Below, piece after piece: positions 1,905-20,309 of a stretch of 21,230 nt of DNA; position 1 is the stretch's first letter, and each line of letters starts with the position of its first letter. The translations under genes were made by a program, and so were the position numbers. This DNA comes from Promethearchaeota archaeon (GTDB taxonomy: Archaea > Asgardarchaeota > Lokiarchaeia > Sigynarchaeales > SOKP01), in the NCBI GenBank assembly GCA_030605085.1, contig JAUWBH010000103.1:1-21230 (forward strand). The letters run 5' to 3'. Below the pieces are notes generated by a model. That model saw only the letters and a program-made list of their open reading frames with translations, searched no databases and had not been told where the DNA came from.

Positions 1905-3299
1905 TTATCTAACATTTTTTGAGCCTTCCCCGACCTTTCGATAAATAAATCCTATTTCTCCGACAATTTTTTTATCAAAGATATTACGACCGTCAATAAT
2001 AATTGGTGTTATCATTTTCTTTTTAATATCACTCAGGTTTAAGTTGTAATATTGCTTATGATTAGTTGCAAAAATCAGGACATCTGCACCTGAAACTGCT
2101 TCATTTAAATCATCAGTTAATTGCGTTTCTTTATAATCCCTTTCCTTGACGTAAGGATCGTGGGCAATATATTGAATATTATGAGAATGGTATCTTTTCT
2201 TTAAAGTCCATACGATTTTTTCTATAGGTGTATTTCTCGTGTCATCTGTGTCTGCTTTGTATGATACGCCCATTAAAGCAATTTTTAAATTGTCGTGTTT
2301 ATTAGCTTCCTTGAGGGCATCCTCCATTAATTCAACCATATGGTTAGGCATGAAATCGTTCAATTCTCTTGCTTTTAGCAATATATCGGAATTATATTTA
2401 TTATTAGTGTAAGTGCGATGCCCAAATACAAGGAGATGTGGGTCTTTGGTCAGGCAATGCCCCCCTACCCCAGAACCTGGGTAATGCATCATCCGGTCGT
2501 GTCTATGATTAATTAATTCAATAATTTCGAAGATATTTCTATTAAAATCCTCACAAACAAGGGCCATTTCGTTAGAAAACGCGATATTTACATCCCTGTA
2601 TGTATTTTCTATGCATTTTGTAAGCTCTGCTGTAAGCGTATCTGTTACTTGGAGTTCTTTTTTAACAACCTTCCCATATAAAAATTTTGCATTCTCATTA
2701 GCTTTATCACATCCACCGCCAATAACTCTTGGAAAATCTGTAATGTATTCAATCAATTTACCAGGCATAACTCGTTCAAACGAAAAAACTAAATAGAAAT
2801 CCTCTCCCCGCTTCATCCCACTTCCTTTCTCAAAAATTTGTTGAACAATATTATCTGTTGTTCCCGGAGCAACAGTTGATTCAATGATAACGGTTACTCC
2901 TTTTTTCATATGAAGAGCAATCAGTTTTGAAACATCCTTTAACGAATCGTATCTTGGTATTCTATGGTCGTCTACCGGTGTTTGTACATCAATAAGTATG
3001 AAATCAGCATCATCACAGGATTCATATTTATCTGTCACCTTAAATTTTCCCTTTTTCACGACTCGGGCGATTAATTCGTCTAATCCTGGTTCTTCTCCTT
3101 CAAAAGGATTTTTTCCCTCATTAAGCCAGTCAATTTTCCAACCAGATCTTTGAGACCTCCGTTGTACTCCCGTAACATAAAAATTTTTCACATCTGCCAG
3201 TAAAGCGGCCATTGGAACGCCGACTACGGCGGCCTAAAAGAAATCTTTAAGCCTATACCCCATTCCAATGACAGTTATATTTGTTCTTTTTAAGGACAT
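1905..3299 (-). CDS. Nucleotide-sugar (UDP-sugar) dehydrogenase, split by a 30-nt insertion; join(1905..3224, 3255..3299)
   Basis: UDP-glucose/UDP-N-acetylmannosamine 6-dehydrogenase family (WecC/Ugd type), which oxidises a UDP-sugar to the uronate with NAD+ for surface glycan synthesis. Uninterrupted from ATG 3212, the product is 435 residues but lacks the N-terminal GxGxxG strand. That strand is encoded upstream: ATG 3299 to 3255 gives MSLKRTNITVIGMGY, and 3224-3213 gives VGVP directly before the MAALLAD that starts the long frame. Between them lie 30 nt (3254-3225) with an in-frame TAG at 3236-3234. Joined, the protein has 454 residues and an intact GMGYVGVP motif at about 12-19. The catalytic region is intact: K218 (AELTKCIENTYRD) and C272 in GGHCLTKDP. 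An ATG-to-stop reading would miss the first 19 residues and the NAD-binding loop. It could alternatively be a pseudogene. Confidence 0.85.
3225..3254 (-). other. Candidate 30-nt bulge-helix-bulge mini-intron in the dehydrogenase gene
   Basis: On the minus strand, the interval separates codon TAT (Tyr, 3257-3255) from GTC (Val, 3224-3222) of the conserved GYVG motif and contains TAG. Its ends fold on themselves: 3253-3246 pairs with 3231-3238 (8 bp including one G-U), then a bulged U3239 and pair 3245-3240 around a 4-nt loop. Flanking exon bases pair too: 3269-3261 (AUUGGAAUG) with 3211-3219 (CGUUCCAAU), 9 bp. Between these helices, 3257-3259 pairs with 3230-3228, leaving 3-nt bulges AUA (3256-3254) and UAG (3226-3224). 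The frame-restoring cuts (3255|3254 and 3225|3224) fall after the second base of each bulge, as the archaeal splicing endonuclease prefers. Imperfect points: a G-G mismatch (3260/3227) and four unpaired bases (3223-3220). Confidence 0.6.
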
Positions 3300-3385
3300 C
3301 ATAATATTTAACACTTCAGTATAATTGATTGTTTAAATTAAAAATTATTTATTTATTTTTTCTTTCATCTTATGTTGTGAGTAAT

Positions 3386-19712: not shown

Positions 19713-20309
19713 ATGCCGAAAAATGAAGACAATGAAAAGGATAAGGGAGGGAGACCAAAAAAATTTGAAGGAGATAGCAAAGTGATCTCTTTTAAAATAA
19801 ATGGGAATGTATATACAAAGAGAAGAGATAAAATTCGAGAGATAATAGACGAAGTGATAAAAGAAGAAGTAATAAAAGAAGGAGAAAAAAAAGAAGAAGT
19901 GATGAAAGAAGAAGTGAAAAAAAAGGAAATAACGAAAGATAGACCAATAAAAGAAGAAGACACAAAAGACAAAATAAAAAAGGAAGAAGTAATAAAAGAC
20001 GAAGACACAAAAGACAAAATAAAAAAGGAAGAAGTAATAAAAGACGAAACAACAAAAAATAAAACAAAAAAAGAAGAAGTAACCTTAGAGAAAAATAACG
20101 AAATTGGGAAAGAAAAACAAGAAGTCAGGAACGGTGATAACGAATTATCAGACCCTTTAAAGAAAAAACTCGAAGAAAATGTTGAAGAAGAAAAAGGAGA
20201 AGTAAGGGATCAGAGTAAAGAATTAGATCATTTACCAAAGGAAGAATCTGGAGAGATTGCTGAAAAAGAAAGCGATACGGAAAGAGAAGATAAAAAGTAT
20301 CTTTTTTAA
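19713..20309 (+). CDS. Lys/Glu-rich protein with ribbon-helix-helix-like N-terminus
   Basis: A 198-residue protein. GGRPKKFEGDSKVISF, then KINGNVYTKRRDKIREIIDEVIKE (~12-50), has the layout of RHH DNA-binding domains (strand with KVISFKI, two helices) preceded by an AT-hook-like GRPKK. Residues ~50-190 are low-complexity Lys/Glu with 15-residue repeats (DTKDKIKKEEVIKDE; DNA period 45 at 19956-20000 and 20001-20045). The frame ends with TAA TAA (20307-20312), but the same frame then continues open to 20549. Inference: a DNA-binding regulator with a disordered tail, possibly acting on the palindromes nearby. Confidence in the RHH call is moderate. Confidence 0.55.
   Translation: MPKNEDNEKDKGGRPKKFEGDSKVISFKINGNVYTKRRDKIREIIDEVIKEEVIKEGEKKEEVMKEEVKKKEITKDRPIKEEDTKDKIKKEEVIKDEDTKDKIKKEEVIKDETTKNKTKKEEVTLEKNNEIGKEKQEVRNGDNELSDPLKKKLEENVEEEKGEVRDQSKELDHLPKEESGEIAEKESDTEREDKKYLF
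19956..20045 (+). repeat. 45-bp tandem repeats within the Lys/Glu-rich gene
   Basis: Two near-identical 45-bp units (19956-20000, 20001-20045) plus a diverged third encode the EDTKDKIKKEEVIKD repeat. Confidence 0.85.
20292..20306 (+). terminator. Small hairpin immediately before the tandem stop codons
   Basis: AAAAAG (20292-20297), TAT, CTTTTT (20301-20306): a perfect 6-bp A/T-rich hairpin ending one base before TAA at 20307-20309. It could help termination or recoding, or be chance. Confidence 0.3.

Follow-up and report, generated by a model that had tools for sequence, protein, structure and literature searches.

The window, the whole 21,230-nt stretch analysed here, carries on its minus strand a gene for a nucleotide-sugar dehydrogenase, in which a Pfam search detects all three UDPG_MGDP_dh domains. 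The product has a relative of solved structure (PDB 3g79, E 6.5e-92), and its closest genome loci, as well as most of its named database relatives, belong to Lokiarchaeota or Promethearchaeota, so that the window itself very probably comes from a Lokiarchaeon. The gene is arranged as two exons around a putative 30-nt intron. Exon 1 (3255..3302, minus strand) begins with the start codon and ends at Tyr16 in the NAD-binding loop (MMSLKRTNITVIGMGY), the insert (AGGCUUAAAGAUUUCUUUUAGGCCGCCGUA) occupies 3225..3254 of the same strand, and exon 2 (1905..3224, minus strand), to which the Pfam domains and the PDB relative correspond, extends from Val17 to the stop (439 codons plus stop) and contains no further stop. 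Elsewhere in the window, a Lys/Glu-rich repetitive ORF of 198 aa without a Pfam match lies at 19713-20309 on the plus strand.

The insert (3254-3225, minus strand) separates the Tyr and Val codons of the GMGY-VGVP NAD loop, and its seventh codon is an in-frame TAG (UAG in the transcript); when it is retained, translation ends after 22 residues. Among all deletions of 20-45 nt starting at most 40 nt from the site, exactly one restores GMGYVGVPMAALLADV, that of these 30 nt. The joined gene encodes 455 aa counted from the first ATG and 454 from the second, with no other stop in the 455 codons and with 439 intact codons downstream. The original prediction had placed a 30-nt, TAG-bearing interruption between Tyr and Val, had held that removal of exactly 30 nt restores the frame, and had described an otherwise intact enzyme of 454 residues; all three statements agree with these results. 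The loop itself is well conserved, as 117 of the 120 listed homologues read through GMGYxGxP, the other three (P0001, P0017 and P0095) beginning right after it. P0001, encoded on a 2413-nt contig of another assembly, is identical to the window protein except for one residue and starts at the same place after the site, which argues against an assembly slip; given this sequence, known as a protein alone, and the comparable inserts in other genomes, an assembly error in the window is unlikely. The internal start at MAALLADV proposed by the gene caller was rejected, as it would drop the conserved NAD loop standing just upstream.

An 81-nt stretch containing the site folds at -28.6 kcal/mol (z = -3.07), and none of 200 shuffles folds as well. 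In the bulge-helix-bulge (BHB) form, the intron hairpin (3231..3253, minus strand, as are all elements of the fold) has arms of 9 nt paired at 9 of 9 positions and a 5-nt loop, AUUUC. The central helix brings the exon-1 strand GGGU (3257..3260) together with the intron strand GCCG (3227..3230) in three of four possible pairs, the remaining position being a G-G mismatch. The outer helix is formed by an exon-1 strand (3261..3272; GUCAUUGGAAUG) that pairs at 12 of 12 positions with an exon-2 strand (3208..3219, paired as 3219-3208), leaving four exon-2 bases (UCGG, 3223-3220) unpaired. These helices set out two 3-nt bulges, AU/A on the 5' side (3254..3256) and UA/G on the 3' side (3224..3226), in which the slashes mark cuts predicted between 3255 and 3254 and between 3225 and 3224. 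The prediction follows the pre-mRNA introns of cbf5 in Crenarchaeota, in which cleavage falls between bases two and three of each bulge (PMC2738675).

The hairpin, originally given as 8 bp plus 1, is present, and the frame-restoring cuts do fall after the second base of two 3-nt bulges, at the very boundaries set by homology. The imperfections that had been listed (a central helix of 3 bp, a G-G mismatch and four extra unpaired bases) are likewise all found; the window insert thus has the 3-nt bulges, central helix and cuts of an archaeal BHB intron in a relaxed rather than a perfect form. The exon pairing, described as extending over 9 bp, exists and covers 12 positions, but it is weak as evidence: exon-exon pairing of 8-12 of 12 is also reached at 37 distinct intronless sites, so that the outer helix proves little and is largely inherent in the near-self-complementary coding of VIGMGYVGIPMA. 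The same coding may be a reason why introns settle there. In the minimum-energy fold the central helix is absent, the intron strand GCCG pairs with exon 2 instead and the 3' cut site lies in a small loop; because of this alternative pairing, forcing the BHB form costs 3.6 kcal/mol.

Comparable inserts interrupt other dehydrogenase genes. In L034 (genome G001, isolate LW60_5) a 30-nt insert with TGA and TAA in frame occupies the same site, as does a 29-nt insert with TAA in L002 (G002, isolate AMARA_1S). A third, in L066 (G121), has 30 nt and an in-frame TAA and lies at another place, the GGHC motif, the Cys of which we take to be the catalytic cysteine. A search across the phylum matched the dehydrogenase in at least 205 of 227 genomes; 49 of them, made up of the 30 top matches plus 19 more, were examined for inserts (G105 offering only a fragment without the loop), and three carry one: G001, G002 and G121. 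The out-of-frame insert of G002 was recognised in two comparisons and went unflagged in a third. This 29-nt insert is the unique deletion that restores its protein, and it obeys the cut rule, with four of four pairs in the central helix, bulges UG/A and AA/U, and a Val codon split G/TC. At -0.5 kcal/mol its hairpin is too weak to pass the BHB-score filter, and its central helix plus hairpin are equalled in 26 of 5000 shuffles. The predicted loop AUUUC is common to the G002 and window inserts, an identity from which the two may share descent. For the G121 insert, four placements restore the protein equally.

P0095, encoded on an ENA contig of 48583 nt, starts right after the loop as intron-bearing genes do and is perhaps another carrier, its insert being surmised from this start. 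Two further loci contain defects that are not introns: the dehydrogenase of L098 (G061) has a lone TAA between ERVMPGKL and EYI and no insert, and L027 is frameshifted next to Ns.

A quick tree of 139 proteins requires five changes of the label 'insert', which pools the two sites and includes P0095 with its presumed insert, and the starred branches force at least four. The insert-bearing L002 is sister to L001 and P0007, both insert-free; gain or loss of the inserts therefore looks recent and recurrent. L001 and L002 are ~97% alike over most of the gene, but identity drops to ~87% in an interval that begins 136 nt upstream of the site and ends ~100 nt past it; several synonymous changes adjoin the intron, and farther upstream there is no alignment. 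This local divergence could stem from co-conversion with a donor that bears the intron; selection on pairing or unrelated recombination would explain it too.

Inserts are not confined to the dehydrogenase. An all-against-all comparison of 2.03 Mb of stretches from five genomes, with homologous matches spanning ~1.0 Mb and results listed for the loci from L103 on and the window, added only one case to those known: the G3 motif of a Rab-like GTPase in G001 (L151:1366-1395) is interrupted by 30 nt that include an in-frame TGA. The other flagged places were judged by eye as gene borders or antisense frames. BHB introns in protein genes therefore look rare, as seen through a filter that misses out-of-frame examples such as the 29-nt insert of G002. 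With its 30 nt removed the GTPase reads WDIAGQPQF, and WD(I/V)AGQPQF is present in 120 of 120 listed orthologues (92 with WDIAGQPQF, 28 with WDVAGQPQF), with up to 94% identity to the spliced product; the junction had been written into the query before the orthologues were retrieved. A Ras-family search returned 67 matches in G001, one of them with an internal stop, namely the L151 insert. Among the 79 matches in G121, one fragment contained stops and stood beside a second fragment shifted by one nucleotide in frame. An ab initio scan for BHB motifs over 1.27 Mb tested 2585 stops and kept 66 sites. Within the 45 listed, the inserts of the G001 dehydrogenase, of G121 and of the GTPase (the latter as a 39-nt placement) rank high, and two candidate places in L129 and L123 score above the known inserts. 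The window insert is absent from these 45 sites, we think since exon 1 of its gene falls short of what the filter requires.

BHB motifs have a central helix of 4 bp. Together with the cbf5 cut rule, this fixes the intron length at 1 nt plus the hairpin plus 6 nt, whereby an intron of 30 nt needs a hairpin of 23 nt. All four 30-nt inserts share this plan: 1 nt, a 23-nt hairpin with 9-nt arms and a 5-nt loop, and 6 nt. Of nine possible hairpin pairs, the window insert forms 9, the G001 dehydrogenase insert 8, the GTPase insert 7 and the G121 insert 8; of four central pairs they form 3, 4, 3 and 4, in the same order. When the insert was shuffled and hairpin plus central helix were scored in this fixed geometry, equal or better values arose in 82 (window), 34 (G001 dehydrogenase), 1099 (GTPase) and 49 (G121) of 200,000 shuffles, the G121 figure being for the best of four placements; in the first placement tried, 2907 of 200,000 were as good. 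With no constraint on arm, loop and offset, the hairpin is matched by a fraction of 0.006 of the shuffles for the window and 0.014 for G121, and by unremarkable fractions of 0.107 and 0.150 for the two G001 inserts.

Ranked by BHB score against all positions of its gene at its own length, the insert comes first in the window (1 of 1296), in the G001 dehydrogenase (1 of 1330) and in the GTPase (1 of 570), and second in G121 (2 of 1310), where it is outscored by a placement of that insert displaced by 2 nt. Over lengths of 20-45 nt none is top, the ranks being 7 of 33,631, 3 of 34,515, 49 of 14,755 and 14 of 33,995 for the window, the G001 dehydrogenase, the GTPase and G121. The four best sites listed per gene all overlap the insert in the three dehydrogenases, and two of the four do so in the GTPase. 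The BHB form is the predicted minimum-energy fold in none of the five inserts. Forcing it costs 2.1 kcal/mol in the G001 dehydrogenase, 6.6 in the GTPase, 1.8 in G002 and, in G121, 2.1 in the best placement or 4.9 in the first; the six bulge bases are all unpaired in the minimum fold of the window insert only. Energy predictions of this magnitude carry uncertainty, and the endonuclease may select the BHB form, so that the fold alone is no proof.

Related genomes, carriers among them, contain tRNA introns of similar size. Genome-wide scoring, which covered 150 of 199-298 tRNA candidates per genome, gave 61 tRNA matches in G001, G008 and G121 (17 in G001). At least 95 nt are spanned by 32 of them, of which 29 measure 98-105 nt, implying an intron of ~25-33 nt if the mature tRNA has 72-73. 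Clear BHB introns of 29-31 nt were recognised in four of 13 distinct tRNA genes (Gly, Ala and two Thr; L240, L242, L243 and L247), and all four obey the same cut rule as the protein-gene inserts. No clear BHB intron was seen in the other nine (L239, L244, L246, L248, L249, L251, L252 and the Lys and Phe genes of L210); in this test the stretches of L240 and L251 had been cut at a wrong offset. ARAGORN at its preset settings found no tRNA in 51 stretches, and with introns allowed it found eight in an enlarged set. At the Rfam gathering score, three sets of G001 stretches yielded no tRNAs and two G008 sets yielded four.

The enzymes that would process such introns are also encoded. The tRNA-splicing endonuclease EndA (PF01974) is present in nine of nine Lokiarchaeota genomes tested, a set that includes the carriers G001 and G002 and excludes G121; two copies occur in eight, both carriers among them. 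In sequence, the G001 alpha chain comes closest to PDB 3p1z and 3ajv, which we take to be the two-chain EndA of Aeropyrum pernix, and it keeps a His that is Ala in 3ajv; by eye, the beta chain of G001 lacks that His. Enzymes with two kinds of chain are able to cut relaxed BHB motifs, and the two-chain endonuclease expected of BHB introns is thus found in Lokiarchaeota, including G001 and G002. The ligase RtcB was detected in four of five genomes searched, the three carriers G001, G002 and G121 plus G008; it was not found in the fifth, G003, which has no insert in its dehydrogenase.

Taken together, the 30 nt very probably form a BHB intron that the tRNA-splicing machinery removes from the transcript of this Lokiarchaeal nucleotide-sugar dehydrogenase gene. 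The original proposal of a tiny BHB-type intron in a protein gene gains support from the same-site inserts, the GTPase insert, the size of the tRNA introns, the two EndA chains and RtcB. In the proposed mechanism, exon 1 would pair with exon 2 and the intron would fold into its own hairpin, the last bases of exon 1 would pair with the last bases of the intron as the central helix, and two 3-nt bulges would thereby be set out. The two-chain EndA would cut behind the second base of either bulge, whereupon RtcB would join the exons in frame to give GMGYVGVP, the full NAD loop; the similarly sized tRNA introns of these genomes would be handled by the same pair of enzymes. We infer the cutting and joining, the fold adopted in the cell, and an enzyme that imposes or captures the BHB form. 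Other classes of intron do not fit. None of the five inserts has the GT-AG ends of spliceosomal introns (their ends are AG..TA, AA..AA, AG..AA, AC..TT, or TT..AC in another placement, and TG..AT). Group I and group II introns possess a catalytic RNA core of hundreds of nucleotides, and the inserts have only 29-30 nt.

The intron could also be real and partly spliced, the stop in the retained form tuning the amount of enzyme as a regulatory switch. A product made from the retained form ought to be inactive, since the inserts fall in the NAD-loop, catalytic-Cys and G3 motifs; in-frame stops occur in five of five inserts, and the BHB form competes with other folds. However, the patchy presence of the inserts, with L001 lacking one beside its close relative L002, argues against a conserved switch, which we regard as unlikely. 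Programmed ribosome bypassing, in which the 30 nt would be skipped without any cutting of RNA, would suit a structured gap passed over in frame and a length that is a multiple of three in four of the five inserts. In known cases of bypassing, take-off and landing codons match; here they match in none of five (TAT/GTA, TAT/TAA, TAT/CTA, CAC/TAC and CAA/AAT, with one placement for G121). Bypassing, which explains neither the BHB cut rule nor the likeness to tRNA introns, was rejected on this codon comparison and is very improbable.

That the interrupted genes are pseudogenes or assembly errors deserves little credence, even though all sources are metagenome assemblies and the homologue L098 has a lone stop without an insert. 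The near-identical P0001 comes from another assembly and has the same start, the inserts occur in separate genomes, conserved codons are intact on both sides and no other stop interrupts the 455 codons; a pseudogene was rejected on the strength of the intact flanking codons. Finally, translation of the insert, with its stop read as an amino acid and ten residues added to the loop, is extremely improbable, even though TAG is read as pyrrolysine in some archaea. The five inserts use all three stop codons, on which ground a reassigned stop was rejected; the one of 29 nt would put the downstream codons out of frame, and a ten-residue addition within such motifs is expected to abolish nucleotide binding or catalysis.

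A BHB intron in the dehydrogenase pre-mRNA would have its counterpart in the cbf5 introns, for which PMC2738675 cites Watanabe 2002 and gives lengths of 33, 36 and 39 bp for four species. The likeness lies in a BHB motif within coding sequence, the same cut rule, disruption of the codon for a catalytic residue, and gain and loss; in addition, some non-standard BHB forms of cbf5 are expected to need a hetero-oligomeric EndA (PMC2738675). However, cbf5 is a single gene of crenarchaeal orders with spliced cDNA, whereas the inserts described here, recognised from sequence, affect another phylum, two gene families and three sites. The interrupted genes being a nucleotide-sugar dehydrogenase and a Rab-like GTPase, the inserts are not cbf5-type introns in the strict sense; what would be new is the use of the same presumed mechanism in this setting and at a near-uniform size of 29-30 nt, close to that of the tRNA introns.

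Asgard tRNA introns, present in 92-95% of the tRNA genes of Atabeyarchaeia and Freyarchaeia according to the portion of the paper available (PMC11291895), presumably share the machinery and, in Lokiarchaeota, about the same size, the same cut rule applying in four. Their host RNA, unlike that of the inserts, is tRNA rather than mRNA, and protein genes are not mentioned in that portion. An mRNA is a substrate of EndA in Haloferax, where the BHB sites of HVO_1309 are cleaved in the 5' UTR, an untranslated leader; by 2020, cbf5 was the only additional BHB intron reported in archaea (PMC7714728). Tiny insertions in coding genes were also put forward for an archaeal virus by Peng et al. (as cited in PMC2738675), these putative introns measuring 12 bp, with splicing not demonstrated and translation possible. 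Judged by titles and the openings of abstracts, no report of protein-gene introns in Asgard archaea was recognised among the open-access journal papers listed.

A broader reading, which we advance tentatively as somewhat less probable than its opposite, is that Lokiarchaeota harbour dispersed BHB introns of ~30 nt that pass from tRNA genes to protein genes or back, with reverse splicing or co-conversion as possible routes, and that have repeatedly entered highly conserved nucleotide-binding and catalytic codons, all without a spliceosome. Gene callers truncate such genes unnoticed, as P0017 (G002), P0001 and probably P0095 start at the first ATG after the site. Asgard archaea are relatives of the ancestors of eukaryotes. 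If the dehydrogenase insert is indeed spliced, it would join the handful of introns known from protein genes of archaea, the recent gains and losses of such inserts would offer material for studying how introns enter genes, and the tRNA-splicing machinery would also serve mRNAs in archaea that stand near the eukaryotes.
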